Assembly (NCBI RefSeq): GCF_022429645.1
Contig: NZ_CP092480.1
Location: forward strand, 1,718,501-1,782,500
Direction: 5' to 3'
Source: Lutibacter sp. A80
GTDB taxonomy: Bacteria > Bacteroidota > Bacteroidia > Flavobacteriales > Flavobacteriaceae
Length of the DNA: 64,000 nt
Shown one piece after another: positions 288 to 9,987 of this stretch (positions are counted from its first letter, which is position 1; each line of letters starts with the position of its first letter). The notes beneath the pieces are model-generated. The model worked only from the letters and a program-made list of their open reading frames with translations. It had not been told where the DNA came from and ran no database searches. The translations under genes and the position numbers were made by a program.

Positions 288-863
288 TTATTTATTAGCA
301 TCAATAAAGTTTTTAACCAATTGTTCGCCTATTGGTGTTAAAATAGATTCTGGATGAAATTGTACGGCACTAATATTATATTCTTTATGTTGAATACTCA
401 TAATATCACCAAATTCATCAACTGAAGTAATTTTTAATTCTTCTGGAAAATCGGTTTTTGAAGCGATCCACGAATGATATCTTGCAGCTTCAAACTCTGC
501 AGGTACATCTTTATATATCTGTGCATTTGCATCTGTAACTTTCATTGTAGTTGCTACTCCATGAAAAACAGTATCTAAATTCTCCAAACTTCCTCCAAAA
601 ACTTCTGTAATTGCTTGCAAGCCTAAGCATACACCAAAAATTGGTTTTTTCCCTGCATATGTTTTTATTACTTCTTTTAAAATTCCTGCTTCATCTGGAA
701 TTCCTGGACCAGGAGATAAGAAAATTAAATCATACTCATTAATGGCTTCAATTGCAATTTCATCATTCCTAAAAACTGATGGATATACTCCGGTAATATC
801 TTGAACCATATGCACCAAATTATAGGTAAAAGAGTCGTAATTATCTAATATTAATATTTTCAT
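288..863 (-). CDS. trpG: Anthranilate synthase component II (glutamine amidotransferase)
   Basis: TrpG takes ammonia from glutamine and passes it to TrpE to make anthranilate from chorismate, in the cytoplasm. The 191-residue protein is full length for a stand-alone class I glutaminase. Visible motifs are the oxyanion strand LSPGPGIPDEAG (about residues 49-60), the nucleophile Cys79 in GVCLGLQ, and the His170/Glu172 pair in QFHPES. It lies 70 bp after trpE and 47 bp before trpD, so the three are probably co-transcribed from the attenuated promoter near 2.48 kb. In some bacteria this subunit is shared with folate synthesis (PabA); the trp context makes TrpG the main role here. Confidence 0.95.
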   Translation of the reverse strand: MKILILDNYDSFTYNLVHMVQDITGVYPSVFRNDEIAIEAINEYDLIFLSPGPGIPDEAGILKEVIKTYAGKKPIFGVCLGLQAITEVFGGSLENLDTVFHGVATTMKVTDANAQIYKDVPAEFEAARYHSWIASKTDFPEELKITSVDEFGDIMSIQHKEYNISAVQFHPESILTPIGEQLVKNFIDANK

Positions 864-933: not shown

Positions 934-2325
934 TTATATATTTTCTGCTAAAATTAACGCCTTTTTTAAAGCTGCTAATTTGTTATTTACTTCTTGTAAT
1001 TCACCTTCTTCTGTAGATTTCATAACTATCCCTGCTCCAGCTTGGTAAAATAATGTGTTATTTTTACTAACATAAGAGCGTATTGCAATGGCTAAGTTTA
1101 CAGTATCATCTAAACCAATAAAACCAACTGCTCCTCCATAAAAACCTCTTGTTTGGTTCTCGTAGGTATCGATTAATTCCATAGCTTTATATTTTGGAGC
1201 TCCACTTAGTGTTCCTGCAGGAAAAGTATCTCCAACTATTTTTATAACTTTTCCTTTTGGTTTTCCTTCAACTCTTGAAACCAAATGAATTACATGACTA
1301 AAGTATTGTACTTCTTTAAAAACATCTACAAACACATTACTTGCGTGTTTACTTAAATCGTTACGTGCTAAATCAACCAACATTACGTGTTCGGCAGTCT
1401 CTTTTTTATCGTTAGAAAGCTTTTCTCCTAAAAGAATATCTTTAGACATATCACCCGTTCTTCTAAAAGTTCCGGCAATAGGATTAATAACAGCACTTTC
1501 TTTATCTATTTTAATTTGTGCTTCTGGAGAAGACCCCATTAATTTAAAACTTCCATAATCGAAATAAAACAAATATGGTGAAGGGTTTATAGAACGTAAT
1601 GCTCTGTAAACATTGAACTCATCGCCAGAAAAAGATTGTTGAAATTGTCGTGATAACACCAGTTGAAAAACATCTCCACGTTTACAATGTTGTTTTGCTT
1701 TAGCTACATTATTCTTAAAATATTCGTCTGTACAATTTGAAGTTTCTTCACCTTCTATACTAAAATTATACAATCCAAAAGTACGTGCATTTATTAAGGT
1801 TTCTATTTCGTACATTCTAGACTCTTCACCTTCTTCAACATTTTCAATTAATGTAAGTTCATCTTTAAAATGATTGATAGCAATTATAAAACGAAAAAAG
1901 CTAAACTGCAGATCTGGAATTTCTGATGCTGCTTTTTTAGCATTTAATTTTATAGTTTCAAAATATTGAATAGAATTATAAGACATATACCCGTAAAAAC
2001 CATTGAATGACTTTACACTTTCATCACAATCAACCTTAACAGTATTTTTATATGTTTCAAAAATTGAATAGAAATCGCGATTGATTTCTTTAACTGCAGT
2101 CTCTTGATTTTTATAACTATATGTAAAGTTATTTTTATCAGCTTTTAGTGTTATTATTGGTGCTGCACAGATAAAAGTATAACTATCTTCTTTGGTATGG
2201 TAATCTGAACTTTCTAATAATAAACTATTCGCATATTTATCTCTAATCTTAGAGTATAAACCAACAGGTGTTACTGTGTCGGCTAATTGTTTTTTTGAAA
2301 TTGTTGTAAACTTTAATTCTTGCAT
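934..2325 (-). CDS. trpE: Anthranilate synthase component I
   Basis: TrpE converts chorismate plus ammonia (from TrpG) to anthranilate, the first committed step of tryptophan synthesis. At 463 residues it is a normal-length enzyme. The N-terminal part includes an LLESS segment near residue 36, where TrpE proteins carry the feedback-inhibition site for tryptophan. The C-terminal chorismate-binding domain shows PSPYLFYFDYG, the GTFRRTGD loop, DLARNDL and PAGTLSGAPKYKAMELID, all signatures of the family. It is the first structural gene after the leader peptide and attenuator hairpin; the hairpin's U-tract runs almost up to its ATG. PabB is the main alternative, but the trpG/trpD neighbours decide for TrpE. 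Confidence 0.95.
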   Translation of the reverse strand: MQELKFTTISKKQLADTVTPVGLYSKIRDKYANSLLLESSDYHTKEDSYTFICAAPIITLKADKNNFTYSYKNQETAVKEINRDFYSIFETYKNTVKVDCDESVKSFNGFYGYMSYNSIQYFETIKLNAKKAASEIPDLQFSFFRFIIAINHFKDELTLIENVEEGEESRMYEIETLINARTFGLYNFSIEGEETSNCTDEYFKNNVAKAKQHCKRGDVFQLVLSRQFQQSFSGDEFNVYRALRSINPSPYLFYFDYGSFKLMGSSPEAQIKIDKESAVINPIAGTFRRTGDMSKDILLGEKLSNDKKETAEHVMLVDLARNDLSKHASNVFVDVFKEVQYFSHVIHLVSRVEGKPKGKVIKIVGDTFPAGTLSGAPKYKAMELIDTYENQTRGFYGGAVGFIGLDDTVNLAIAIRSYVSKNNTLFYQAGAGIVMKSTEEGELQEVNNKLAALKKALILAENI

Positions 2326-2326
2326 A

Positions 2327-2369
2327 TTTTTAAAATAAAAAAGGACTTATCGCGAGATAAGTCCTTTTT
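2327..2369 (-). terminator. trp operon attenuator (terminator hairpin)
   Basis: Read on the minus strand, an 11-bp perfect stem (arms 2341-2351 and 2356-2366) with a TCGC loop is followed by a T-rich run immediately before the trpE start codon at 2325. This is an intrinsic terminator placed between the leader peptide and trpE. Its loop-side sequence TCTCGC (2352-2357) is exactly complementary to GCGAGA (2404-2409) just after the leader peptide, giving a 6-bp GC-rich competing antiterminator. Together these form a classical attenuation switch. Confidence 0.88.
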
Positions 2370-2409
2370 GTTATATATTGTTAATTAAATATAATGGAAT
2401 GCTTCTCGC

Positions 2410-2463
2410 TTAGCTACTAAGAGAGTTCCACCACCAATTGTTATTTAATGTATTATTCTTCAT
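2410..2463 (-). CDS. trpL: trp operon leader peptide
   Basis: A 17-codon reading frame upstream of trpE encodes MKNNTLNNNWWWNSLSS and ends in TAA. Three consecutive Trp codons (2428-2436) are the hallmark of a ribosome-sensing leader peptide: with little charged tRNA-Trp the ribosome stalls there. The RNA from the Trp codons to about 2395 folds into a hairpin (a CTTAG/CTAAG core and outer GGAA/TTCC pairing) that would be blocked by a stalled ribosome, freeing GCGAGA to pair with the terminator loop. The ATG lies only a few bases from the predicted transcription start, so the mRNA may be nearly leaderless. Too short for ordinary ORF calling, but Trp codons, hairpins and position agree. Confidence 0.87.
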   Translation of the reverse strand: MKNNTLNNNWWWNSLSS

Positions 2464-2471
2464 TTATGGCA

Positions 2472-2502
2472 CAAATTTAGCATACATTTTTAAATACACA
2501 AA
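2472..2502 (-). promoter_or_regulatory. trp operon promoter, Bacteroidota type
   Basis: On the minus strand a TTTG box (2499-2502) is separated by exactly 19 bp from TAAATTTG (2472-2479). This matches the Bacteroidota housekeeping consensus (-33 TTTG, -7 TAnnTTTG). Transcription would start near 2465-2468, a few bases before the leader-peptide ATG at 2463. Confidence 0.8.
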
Positions 2503-2551: not shown

Positions 2552-3379
2552 ATGAGATTTACACACAAAATTGCATTATTATTATGTTTATTAACAATTG
2601 TAACGGTTAATTCACAAGAAAAATTAAAAGGAAATAAAGATGTTATCACACAAAACAGAGACGTTTCAGACTTTAATAGAATAGAGGTTATTGATGATAT
2701 TGATGTTTATCTAACTTACAACGATGTACAATCTGTAAAAGTAGAAACAGACTCTAATTTACAAGATGCTGTTCTAACACAAGTTTCTAACGGTTTACTT
2801 AGCATTAAATTAAATGATAAGATTGTTAGAAGCAAAGAATTAGCAGTTCACATTCACGTAAATAAACAATTAAAAGAAATAAACAGCTATAATAAGTCTA
2901 AAATTACATCTAAAACATCTTTAGCTATTGATACCTTAACTGTAAATACTTTTGACAACTCTAATATAAGTTTAAAACTTAGCTCGCAAATTGTACATAT
3001 AAACAGCAACAAATCGAGCGATTTAAATCTTGAAATTTCAAGTAAATCTATTATCGTTAACGCTCTAGAATCTTCAGATATAACAGGGAATTTTGCATCA
3101 ACAGAAGCTTTTTTTAGATTATTAGACAAAGCATCCATGGAAATTGAAGGTTCTGCAAGTAATTTTGAAATTGAAACTTTAGGAAACACATCATTTAAAG
3201 GAAAAGATTTTAAAGCTGATGCTATTTTAGTAAATGCTACAAACGACTCTAAAACCTATATAAATGCTAAAAAAAATATAGATATACGTGCAAAAAATTC
3301 TGCTGAAGTTTATCTTTATTCAAATCCAAAAATTACACTAACTGAGTTTTTTGACAAAGCATCTATTTATAAAAAATAA
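2552..3379 (+). CDS. Secreted GIN-domain (DUF2807-like) protein
   Basis: A 275-residue protein with a signal peptide (residues 1 to about 21, ending TVNSQ) followed by repeated short beta-strand units such as RIEVIDDIDVYLTYND and SLAIDTLTVNTFDNSNISLKL. This pattern matches the 'head GIN' / DUF2807 family of secreted beta-rich proteins, common in Bacteroidota and of unknown function. It probably sits in the periplasm or outer envelope. It is a single gene, divergent from the trp operon and followed by its own hairpin terminator. No catalytic residues are recognisable, and no role in tryptophan metabolism is implied by its position. Confidence 0.75.
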   Translation: MRFTHKIALLLCLLTIVTVNSQEKLKGNKDVITQNRDVSDFNRIEVIDDIDVYLTYNDVQSVKVETDSNLQDAVLTQVSNGLLSIKLNDKIVRSKELAVHIHVNKQLKEINSYNKSKITSKTSLAIDTLTVNTFDNSNISLKLSSQIVHINSNKSSDLNLEISSKSIIVNALESSDITGNFASTEAFFRLLDKASMEIEGSASNFEIETLGNTSFKGKDFKADAILVNATNDSKTYINAKKNIDIRAKNSAEVYLYSNPKITLTEFFDKASIYKK

Positions 3380-7190: not shown

Positions 7191-8573
7191 TTATATATTT
7201 AACTCATTAAAAAGTTCAATTAATTTTGGGTTTGATGGTCTAGGAGCATTCCACGACACAATATTTCCCTTTGGATCTATTAATATAAAACGTGGTATAC
7301 TATTAATTTTATAAGCTTTAATAAAGTCTGTATTCCAATCCTTATCTGCAAGTAATTGAACTCCTCCTAATTCTTTATCCGCTATCATTTTACTCCAAGC
7401 TCCTTTTACTTCTTGCCTATCAATAGAAATACTTACAAATTCTATGTTTTTACCATGGTATTGTTTTTCAACCTTTTTAAGTGAAGGCACTTCTGCTAAA
7501 CATGGACCACACCAAGTTGCCCAAACATCAATATAAACATACTTTCCACTAAAATTATTTAAAGAAGTTGTTCCTCCTGCATTATTAACATAATCTGTAA
7601 AAATAGGAGAAGGCTCGCCTTTAGAAAGTTTTTTTAAGGCTTTATACTTTTCAGTAAAAACTTTGTTATTTTCTTTTGAAGTAGAAACAGCTATAAAAGC
7701 AGTATAATATGCATCCATATTATCTGTATAAGCTATATCATATTTTGCAGCTGACTTTAATAAATCATTTTTTATATAATCATTAGGTATTGCCCCAAAA
7801 ACTTTAAGTTTTGCCAAATATTTATCAATACCTTCATTATCGGCTAATTCATCTGCTTTCAATTCAAAATATTCCCCTACTAATTCATCATACCAACCTC
7901 TGTGCTTATAAGCTTCTTCATTGTTAAAATCTAAACCTTCTAATGGTTTAAGAAATTCCTTTGAAACTCTAAAATCTGGTTGTTTAATATTACTTCCGTG
8001 TCTATATTGGTATCTAATTAAAGATAAAAGATAATAATTAGTCAATTCTTCTCGTTCAAATTCAGCAAAATCTTTAGGAAGATTAGGAAAGCTATCTAAA
8101 TATTTTATAAGATTTTCTTTAATCATAAAAGCTTTAGCACTAAAATCTGATTCGTTTAAATTATTATATTCTTCAAAATCCCCTCTTAAGCGTTCGTTTC
8201 GTAGGTCTTTAGTCAATAAATATTTAGAAGCATTCGCTACTGGCCCAATTAATTCTGAGGTATTCCTTAGATCTTTACCATTTGTAATTAGTTTATATTC
8301 ACCTCCATTAGCTAAATAAACATCAATCCTATTCATCCCCTTACCACTAAACCTATAAGTTCCTGTTCCTGAAAATATAGTATCACAAATAAAAGAACCA
8401 TCCTCTGCCGTTTTAATAGTAAATCTTCCTCTAGCATCTTTATGATACAGTTTAAATTCTGTCAATGGTGCGTCTGTAATGGTTCCAGATAACAAAATAT
8501 AATTTTTATCCGTTTCCTCTTTACAGGATATTATTGCCAACACAAGGCTTAATACACAAATTATTTTTTTCAT
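7191..8573 (-). CDS. TlpA-like thioredoxin lipoprotein with N-terminal DUF4369-like domain (copy 1)
   Basis: A 460-residue lipoprotein: the signal MKKIICVLSLVLAIISC places the lipid-modified Cys at 17. Residues about 24-125 form a beta-rich DUF4369-like domain, followed by a long helical middle. The C-terminal thioredoxin domain (about 320-460) contains Cys355/Cys358 in WATWCGPCLAEVP and the cis-Pro segment INSIPRFILIDPKG. Such proteins catalyse thiol-disulfide exchange in the periplasm or at the cell surface. It is a clear paralogue of the next gene (34 bp upstream), sharing the WCGPC region nearly unchanged. Both lie downstream of a SusC/SusD/DUF4465-like operon but behind a terminator. Natural substrate unknown. 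Confidence 0.87.
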   Translation of the reverse strand: MKKIICVLSLVLAIISCKEETDKNYILLSGTITDAPLTEFKLYHKDARGRFTIKTAEDGSFICDTIFSGTGTYRFSGKGMNRIDVYLANGGEYKLITNGKDLRNTSELIGPVANASKYLLTKDLRNERLRGDFEEYNNLNESDFSAKAFMIKENLIKYLDSFPNLPKDFAEFEREELTNYYLLSLIRYQYRHGSNIKQPDFRVSKEFLKPLEGLDFNNEEAYKHRGWYDELVGEYFELKADELADNEGIDKYLAKLKVFGAIPNDYIKNDLLKSAAKYDIAYTDNMDAYYTAFIAVSTSKENNKVFTEKYKALKKLSKGEPSPIFTDYVNNAGGTTSLNNFSGKYVYIDVWATWCGPCLAEVPSLKKVEKQYHGKNIEFVSISIDRQEVKGAWSKMIADKELGGVQLLADKDWNTDFIKAYKINSIPRFILIDPKGNIVSWNAPRPSNPKLIELFNELNI

Positions 8574-8607: not shown

Positions 8608-9987
8608 TTAAATCCCAAGTTCATTAAACAAGGTTATTAATTTACTATTTGATGGTCTAGGTGCATTTGAACTGATAATTTTACCATTAGGATCTATTAA
8701 TATAAAACGTGGTATTCCATTAATTTGATAAGCTGTAATAAAATCGCTTTTCCAATCTTTGTCAGCTATTAATTGTACTCCTCCTAATTCTTTATCTGTT
8801 ACCATTTTTCTCCAAGAATCACGAGCTTTTTCTGTATCTATAGAAATACTTACAAATTCTATGTTTTTACCATGGTATTGTTTTTCAACTTTTTGAAGTG
8901 AAGGAACCTCCGCTAAACAAGGCCCACACCAAGTTGCCCAAACATCTATATAAACATATTTCCCTTCAAAATCACTTAAAGAAGATGTTCCTCCGGCATG
9001 ATTTACATAGTCTGTAAATATTGGTGAAAGCTGTCCCCTACTCAATTTTTTTAAGGCTTCATACTTTTTGGTAATGCTTTCGTCATTTTCTGTTGAAGTA
9101 GAAACTGAACGGTAAGCTTTGTAATATTTATCTATATTATCAGTATAACTAATGTCATAATTAGCAGCTGATACTATTAAGCTATTTTTTATAAAATCAT
9201 TAGGAATCTCTCCAAACACCTTTAATTTAGCCAAATATTTATCTACTCCCTTATTTTCTACTAATTCATCAACTTTATTTTTAAAGTGCTTTTCTACTAA
9301 TTTAGTATAAGAACCTCTAAGTTTATAGGCTTCTTCATTTACAAAATTTACATCTTCTAATTCTTTTAAAAAACCTTCTGAAACTTTAAAATCAGGTTGT
9401 TCAGCATATCTTTGGTGTAAACTTTCATAATTAATTAAAGTTAAAAGATGGTAATAATGTAACTCTTCACGTTCTAATTCTTCAAATTCTTTAGGTACAT
9501 TTGGAAAACTTTCTAGGTAGTTAACATAACTTTCATTTAGTTTTTTCTGTGTAGCAATAAAATCAGATTCATTTAATTTATTAAATTCAGCATAATCACC
9601 TCTTAATTTAATAATGTTACTTATTTTAGTCATTAAATAATTAGAAGCATCAGGGTCGGTTCCCGTTAATTTTGAAGTACCTTTAAAATCTTTTCCATTT
9701 GCCGTTATATTATACTCCCCTCCATCAGTTAAATACATATCTGCTCTGTTTCTAGAGTCGGTAAAAATGTAATGACCTGTTCCTGTTGTTAAAGTATCTA
9801 AAAATGAACCGTCATCTGCTAATGTAATATTAAGTATACCTGTACCGCTATTTTTTTTAATTAATCTAAAATTTTTTGTTGTGGCATCTGAAATACTTCC
9901 AGAAAATATAATATAGTTTTTAGTTGTATTTTTTTTACAAGACGCTAAAAATAGCATCGAAAGCAAGAATATAAATATTTTTCTCAT
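8608..9987 (-). CDS. TlpA-like thioredoxin lipoprotein with N-terminal DUF4369-like domain (copy 2)
   Basis: A 459-residue lipoprotein (signal MRKIFIFLLSMLFLASC) with the same architecture as its downstream neighbour: DUF4369-like N-terminus (KNYIIFSGSISDA...), helical middle (ESDFIATQKKLNESYVNYLESFPNVP), and a C-terminal thioredoxin domain with WATWCGPCLAEVPSLQKVEKQ and INGIPRFILIDPNG. Both redox cysteines are present. The pair is a recent-looking tandem duplication: the thioredoxin domains are almost the same, while the middle and N-terminal parts have diverged. It is separated from the upstream lipoprotein gene by a strong terminator at 10.05 kb, so the two TlpA genes may have their own promoter or depend on read-through. 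Confidence 0.87.
   Translation of the reverse strand: MRKIFIFLLSMLFLASCKKNTTKNYIIFSGSISDATTKNFRLIKKNSGTGILNITLADDGSFLDTLTTGTGHYIFTDSRNRADMYLTDGGEYNITANGKDFKGTSKLTGTDPDASNYLMTKISNIIKLRGDYAEFNKLNESDFIATQKKLNESYVNYLESFPNVPKEFEELEREELHYYHLLTLINYESLHQRYAEQPDFKVSEGFLKELEDVNFVNEEAYKLRGSYTKLVEKHFKNKVDELVENKGVDKYLAKLKVFGEIPNDFIKNSLIVSAANYDISYTDNIDKYYKAYRSVSTSTENDESITKKYEALKKLSRGQLSPIFTDYVNHAGGTSSLSDFEGKYVYIDVWATWCGPCLAEVPSLQKVEKQYHGKNIEFVSISIDTEKARDSWRKMVTDKELGGVQLIADKDWKSDFITAYQINGIPRFILIDPNGKIISSNAPRPSNSKLITLFNELGI

Follow-up and report, generated by a model that had tools for sequence, protein, structure and literature searches.

In the enterobacterial trp attenuator, the antiterminator takes the 5′ arm of the terminator. 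A passage published in 2010 (PMC2965389) states that leader peptide systems had, to its authors' knowledge, been shown only in Proteobacteria and Actinobacteria (ermC excepted), taxa to which the same study added Firmicutes. Weinberg et al. 2010 (PMC2864571) list the Bacteroid-trp motif, and PMC6414381 applies the name Bacteroid-Trp RNA to the element before the F. psychrophilum trp operon, likening it to the E. coli attenuator. The attenuator described here belongs to this already known kind. It was found in a window of 64,000 nucleotides (the whole stretch of DNA analyzed) from Lutibacter sp. A80, on the minus strand 5′ of trpE and in front of the operon trpEGDCFBA. With a probability of roughly 0.9, we read it as a ribosome-mediated transcription attenuator of that operon. 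The comparative evidence that argues for this reading consists of its recognizable parts, their conservation, covariation in two alternative helices (2:3 and 3:4) and a narrow spacing between the Trp codons and region 2. The features, with window coordinates and the basis of each assignment, are as follows.

288..863, minus strand: trpG, glutamine amidotransferase subunit (ORFs, Pfam).
934..2325, minus strand: trpE, anthranilate synthase component I, first gene of the operon (Pfam PF00425 and PF04715).
2338..2369, minus strand: intrinsic terminator with a 14-bp stem, loop UCGC and T-run (fold, terminator search, relatives).
2352..2357, minus strand: region 3, UCUCGC, comprising two nucleotides of the 5′ arm and the 4-nt terminator loop (sequence, helix search, covariation).
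2394..2431, minus strand: 1:2 hairpin, outer stem GUGGAA:UUCCAU, inner stem region 1:region 2 (minimum-energy fold and centroid).
2404..2409, minus strand: region 2, the antiterminator strand GCGAGA, directly 3′ of the leader stop (sequence, helix search, covariation).
2410..2463, minus strand: leader ORF of 17 codons plus stop, MKNNTLNNNWWWNSLSS, with ATG at 2463 (conserved in relatives).
2418..2425, minus strand: region 1, CUCUCUUA, with partner UAAGCGAG at 2412-2405 (fold, near-set alignment).
2428..2436, minus strand: three consecutive Trp codons, the proposed sensor (sequence and conservation).
2472..2479, minus strand: −7 promoter element TAAATTTG (TAnnTTTG), 8 nt upstream of the leader ATG.
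2499..2502, minus strand: −33 promoter element TTTG (read in the sequence; TTG is common upstream of the −7 box in relatives).

The remaining genes of the operon, trpD, trpC, trpF, trpB and trpA, come next after trpG, beyond the window. On the other side, the neighboring gene at 2552-3379 (plus strand) is divergent from the attenuator and encodes a DUF2807 (head GIN domain) protein. Among the named genomes, from which the best 80 of 251 relatives were taken, the top match of the window TrpE is that of L. litoralis (91%). Elsewhere in the window, two adjacent minus-strand genes (7191-8573 and 8608-9987) encode similar proteins that share, by eye, a thioredoxin-like WATWCGPCLAEVPSL stretch and are apparently a tandem duplication.

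A search of Rfam returned RF01692 ('Bacteroid-trp', 'Bacteroidete tryptophan peptide leader RNA') at 39.8 bits (E 0.005) against a cut-off of 49, aligned over its full length (1-131) to window positions 2480-2356. No match in the genome lies over the cut-off; the window is the best of three sub-cut-off matches at E ≤10, a permissive limit that yields matches in 7 of 14 control genomes too, one of them over the cut-off. Twelve of 20 sampled homologous loci passed the cut-off, and it was missed by the other 8 and by the window. Since one homologue (L009, TrpE 72% identical) passes with 55.7 bits and aligns with the window, the sequence comparison places the window as an RF01692 homologue below the operational cut-off. 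The features that we take to define the family, an ORF with Trp codons and a hairpin 5′ of trp genes in Bacteroidota, are present. The initial annotation was correct in recognizing attenuator architecture but missed its prior cataloguing as RF01692. In L009, a Flavo-1 RNA (RF01705, 49.5 bits) lies at 2896-3006 (minus strand), directly past the end of the TrpE match.

For comparison, TrpE relatives were drawn from 120 family genomes, 108 of which gave a match, and from the named genomes; G066 was left out because its TrpE match lies at a contig end. This gave 187 upstream regions, two of which (L087, L128) are cut by contig ends, leaving 185 with at least 150 nt; L007/L056 and L012/L077 are identical duplicates among them. 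The 178 regions with a terminator, minus 11 Bacteroidia loci (L080, L081, L083-L086, L088-L091, L093) and six duplicates, form a non-redundant set of 161, and 31 hand-picked near relatives form alignment A1. Controls were dinucleotide shuffles for the Trp-leader, helix-score and helix-plus-spacing/1:2 tests, and single-letter shuffles only for the promoter box, his and phe tests.

The promoter and the 17-codon leader with three consecutive Trp codons, as initially annotated, are present at 2502-2410 on the minus strand. TTTG (2502-2499) and TAAATTTG (2479-2472) are separated by 19 nt and presumably constitute a promoter of the Bacteroidota type. Of 175 non-redundant regions, 151 have a TAnnTTTG box no more than 110 nt upstream of the Trp codons, as compared with 7.7% of mononucleotide shuffles, and TTG precedes the box by 16–24 nt in 136 of these 151, most commonly by 19 nt. 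From the −7 box to the first in-frame ATG there are 8 nt or fewer in 75/150 regions, and fewer than 4 nt in one. At promoters of the TAnnTTTG type, transcription starts ∼4–6 nt past the box. If that start applies, these distances predict that many leader ORFs begin at or within a few nucleotides of the RNA 5′ end.

Conservation of the Trp codons, proposed at the outset as a check, was borne out in homologous regions: an ATG-started leader with WW occurs in 180 of 185 trpE upstream regions (0.35% of dinucleotide shuffles; 1/185 on the reverse strand), and WWW in 145 of 185 (none in shuffles; 0/185 on the reverse strand). The exceptions are L016 and L188, which have no leader, L104, which has WHW instead, and L015 and L021, in which WWW is present with no in-frame ATG within the region read. 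Beyond the Trp codons, the leader sequence diverges strongly among genera. The same conservation bears on the idea that the element is a tryptophan riboswitch, a T-box or a TRAP-type target rather than a ribosome sensor, which we consider very improbable. The position before trpE is all that speaks for it; the sole riboswitch-type Rfam match is preQ1 (13.6 bits, E 8), far below its cut-off and on the opposite strand, no T-box is among the Rfam matches, and tandem Trp codons lie in an ORF in those 180 regions.

Downstream of the leader, the terminator and T-run before trpE had been recognized with an 11-bp stem; they are present, but the stem (2369-2338) comprises 14 bp when its A-U pairs are included. 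The terminator ends 12 nt from trpE. The 141-nt leader folds at −32.4 kcal/mol, as compared with −16.7 for shuffles (sd 3.05; z −5.15; 0/200 as good), and a terminator search identified two sites, corresponding to a single hairpin on both strands, against a shuffle mean of 0.0. In relatives, a terminator lies 3′ of the leader in 178 of 180 leader-bearing regions, 20–48 nt past the stop in 175 of the 178; in L011 and L181 it is visible by eye and was overlooked by the strict search. A chance ORF and a chance terminator were both excluded by shuffles and conservation. The T-runs on both strands of the hairpin would also suit a plain terminator of another transcript, with the leader ORF coincidental. 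This we find scarcely credible, as the upstream gene at 2552-3379 (plus strand) is divergent, so that no minus-strand gene ends here, and leader and terminator occur together in 178/185 regions.

The terminator stem (3:4) also gave the covariation that had been called for. In A1, 100% of cells are paired and 3 pairs are changed on both sides, with a covarying-pair count reached in 3/500 shuffles and a score reached in 0/500, a comparison that leaves shared ancestry in.

A hairpin over the Trp codons had been proposed, and this is accurate in part: the 1:2 hairpin includes the third codon together with the final base of the second, but the minimum-energy fold places the first two codons in a weak stem of their own, which the centroid does not contain. 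In isolation, starting at the second Trp codon and omitting the last base of the outer stem, the 1:2 hairpin has an energy of −9.4 kcal/mol, and its 3′ side is contained in the 34-nt spacer between GCGAGA and the terminator. Comparative support for 1:2 pairing is divided. In the wide set, region-2 nucleotides are paired upstream with a mean probability of 0.75, well above the 0.26 of shuffles, but no significant 1:2 covariation was detected among the 31 sequences of A1 (65/500 shuffles as high).

GCGAGA lies just 3′ of the leader stop as first described, at 2409-2404 directly after TAA. TCTCGC (2357-2352), which had been placed in the terminator loop, is its exact complement, although only TCGC (2355-2352) is loop and the other two nucleotides form the top of the 5′ arm. 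In a register-free search, 150 of 161 non-redundant regions showed a contiguous helix, of weighted score at least 10, that connects the post-Trp segment to the terminator loop. At this cut, 93.2% of regions score, as compared with 48.9% of shuffled and 59.6% of reversed segments; at a cut of 14 the values are 87.6%, 13.5% and 17.4%, respectively. The paired sequences vary between lineages: UCGUGAA:UUCACGA in many Flavobacteriaceae, GCGAGA:UCUCGC in Lutibacter, GUGAGA:UCUCAC in Polaribacter, ACCGAGAGUU:AACUCUCGGU in Carboxylicivirga, and AGAGUUGAGC:GUUCAACUCU, GGGUGU:ACACCC and GGAUUCAG:CUGAAUCC in L076, L092 and L184. When loops were swapped between regions, own loops averaged −8.45 kcal/mol and foreign loops −6.45 (sd 0.14, 2000 permutations), with 26% of foreign loops on average pairing at least as well as the own loop; for the 2:3 pairing, too, both shuffle and swap tests leave shared ancestry in.

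In A1, 90.9% of 2:3 cells are paired, and a single pair covaries (15 U-A, 14 C-G, 2 unpaired). The covariation score was matched in 0/500 shuffles and the wider set contributes the varied sequences given above, but the number of covarying pairs was as high in 337/500 shuffles. With the helix search and the swap test, this supports 2:3 as an antiterminator mutually exclusive with the terminator. Sliding the partner by −3 left 92.3% of cells paired, without covariation. When all 161 regions were aligned globally with MAFFT, fixed-register counts gave 82.6% paired cells, against a mean of 79.1% and a maximum of 81.0% for row shuffles and 23.5–45.1% for slid versions. These counts were discarded, as region 2 of Lutibacter was two columns out of register, and were replaced by the helix search, the swap test and the A1 alignment.

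Loop pairing is not universal. Eleven of the 161 regions have no good loop-anchored helix, and four of these (L044, L054, L057, L058) belong to the 24 Lutibacter-type regions in the set. Their terminator loop is GCAA or GCGA, leaving by eye ∼4 bp of the region-2 complement, which makes them a natural test of the loop model. The proposed 6-bp loop antiterminator holds widely, as a loop helix in 150/161 regions, but its complement is missing in these four relatives. We considered an alternative in which leader-peptide attenuation operates but the on-state forms without loop pairing, through the 5′ arm as in the enterobacterial layout or by another route. The four Lutibacter loci that have lost most of the loop complement are consistent with a 5′-arm route, as is a UAAG 5′ of region 2, complementary to a CUUA within the 5′ arm; in L058 this extends to a possible 7-bp pairing, CGAUAAG:CUUAUCG. 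Furthermore, at 24/29 his loci of this family it is the 5′ arm with which the leader pairs (CGUUUGA type). Set against this are the loop-anchored helices of 150/161 regions with their many compensating sequences and the narrow Trp distance, and we regard the alternative as unlikely for the element as a whole. Given the 11 regions with no good loop helix and the weak helices in several of the Bacteroidia loci outside the set, loop pairing is a rule rather than a strict requirement, and the exceptions might use a 5′-arm variant.

The terminator alone has an energy of −16.7 kcal/mol, and the 2:3 duplex one of −10.3, or −8.6 when closed through its own spacer. Since 2:3 is much weaker than the terminator, read-through would depend on 2:3 being established early enough to hold back the terminator, and the choice between 2:3 and 3:4 would be a kinetic switch.

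In the window, GCGAGA lies 27–32 nt past the first base of the first Trp codon. Across the 150 regions with a loop helix, the partner of the last loop base lies 27–30 nt from the start of the first Trp codon in 132 (sd 2.6), a distance not bound to multiples of three; relative to the stop codon, its position ranges from −19 to +15 (sd 5.3). All values are those of the best helix found per region. A helix combined with a spacing of 26–31 nt was found in 138/161 regions and in 5.7% of shuffles. The helix overlaps the interval from −12 to +15 nt around the stop codon in 149/150 regions. A narrow Trp spacing with a drifting stop is what a ribosome-stall ruler would predict from sequence. Taking ribosome footprint sizes into account, a ribosome stalled on the Trp codons would spare region 2 and one at the stop would cover it. 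Together with the leader, the terminator and the 2:3 pairing, the 27–30 nt spacing in 132/150 regions argues in favor of the ribosome-mediated attenuation that the initial annotation had proposed.

The three states that we infer, with their ribosome positions, kinetics and response to tryptophan, would operate as follows. A ribosome would start on the leader soon after the RNA emerges. When charged tRNA-Trp is ample, it would reach the stop and cover GCGAGA, allowing 3:4 to form and transcription to end before trpE. When charged tRNA-Trp is scarce, it would stall on the Trp codons, opening the outer 1:2 hairpin and making GCGAGA available to UCUCGC in the loop and uppermost stem of the nascent terminator, whose closure would be hindered, so that the polymerase would read through. 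With no translation, 1:2 would sequester GCGAGA and the terminator would prevail.

It is also conceivable that the attenuated transcript acts additionally, or mainly, in trans as a small RNA or peptide. The predicted terminated RNA, ∼130 nt long and with its ORF starting close to the 5′ end, would be suited to such a role, and rnTrpL and peTrpL of Sinorhizobium meliloti are a precedent reported in a passage of PMC7298713. The leader nevertheless varies much between genera apart from its Trp codons, and we consider action in trans improbable.

Leaders for other amino acids were found in the same family. In the Lutibacter sp. A80 genome, the ORF upstream of hisG (G000:C1:817880-818734, minus strand; L195/L198) ends MRTIQLHHHLNTCNQAS. 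Thirty hisG loci were fetched (49/60 genomes with a match), and 29 of them carry a leader in which two or more His codons stand in a row (2.5% of shuffles; 1/30 on the reverse strand); the thirtieth, L209, has no His leader. These leaders (L195/L198 and L199-L227) carry 2–6 consecutive His codons and are followed by a terminator in 29/29 cases, and in 24 of the 29 the best helix forms between the tail of the leader and CGUUUGA in the 5′ arm. Rfam gave one weak unrelated match for L195 and none up to E 0.05 for 11 other his loci.

The pheA gene of the same genome (G000:C1:1913049-1913864, minus strand; L233/L234) is preceded by MITNNTFNSFYFYFYFNNKG. Among 30 pheA (prephenate dehydratase) loci (51/60 genomes with a match), leaders with at least seven Phe/Tyr occur in 28 (shuffles 3.1%; reverse strand 2/30), a threshold first set at five and raised to seven after the first results had been seen. 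The phe leaders (L233/L234, L235-L263) have a terminator in 28/28 cases; the exceptions are L252, without a match, and L253, with only 140 nt upstream. Rfam returned nothing at E ≤0.05 for ten phe loci. A homoserine dehydrogenase/aspartokinase gene of the same genome is preceded by an ORF (L264, 347-436), MQTANTNKLTQNATQMRNLNIATTTTTTL, with six consecutive Thr codons, which ends at a short palindrome, CCCTTTAGGGG; for this Thr-rich ORF before thrA, no terminator with a T-run was seen. No branched-chain leader was seen 5′ of ilvD in two loci.

Two serial trp leaders, each with its own hairpin terminator, were present in 10 of the 11 Bacteroidia loci, all from MAGs (L080, L081, L083-L086, L088-L090, L093); those of L085 are MKTFKSIWLWWGNTFLC and MKYLTLNNRAWRWQDYFLQT. 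Several of these 11 loci, which lie outside the 161-region set and are thus unseen in the 150/161 count, have only weak 2:3 helices.

Taken together, these observations lead us to lean slightly towards a broader view, that Bacteroidota possess a set of attenuators based on leader peptides and built to a design particular to them. Its leader ORFs would often lie a few nucleotides from the RNA 5′ end on TAnnTTTG promoters; the stall ruler would measure 27–30 nt; and the trp antiterminator would seize the terminator loop and not the 5′ arm, with a helix of mostly 5–8 bp beating a far stabler terminator by timing. In Flavobacteriaceae the set would comprise at least trp, his and phe (for his and phe, the scanned loci gave no convincing Rfam match), and some Bacteroidia would have two serial trp attenuators. 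The catalogued but incompletely modelled Bacteroid-trp RNA gains a three-state anatomy, a covarying antiterminator and a measured spacing. If the attenuation operates as proposed, a helix of mostly 5–8 bp can overcome a terminator by way of its loop, and Bacteroidota, most of whose mRNAs have no Shine-Dalgarno sequence, couple transcription to translation tightly enough for attenuation. A loop-directed antiterminator with covariation, a spacing rule and his leaders in Bacteroidota were not found in the literature searched, with phenylalanine leaders, most subscription journals and the additional files of PMC2864571 outside its scope; Lopatovskaya et al. 2010 may list some leaders, and those additional files may describe the terminator.

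Comparison with known systems places the element closest to RF01692, with which it shares the site before trpE in Bacteroidota and the layout. Unlike the window, the RF01692 model stops atop the 5′ arm of the terminator and lacks the loop, the 3′ arm and the loop-directed 2:3 pairing, and the passage on the Flavobacterium psychrophilum element in PMC6414381 contains no anatomy, covariation or test. Like the attenuator of Sinorhizobium meliloti trpLE(G), whose RNA begins at the leader ATG according to PMC7298713, the window has a Trp leader, with an RNA predicted to begin at or near the ATG; that system differs in being alphaproteobacterial and in its reported trans functions. With enterobacterial trpL it has in common a tandem-Trp leader peptide, alternative helices and a terminator before trpE. 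It is distinguished from trpL by its promoter type, by what is probably a very short 5′ UTR, and by an antiterminator that would take the terminator loop and a few adjoining nucleotides of the arm.
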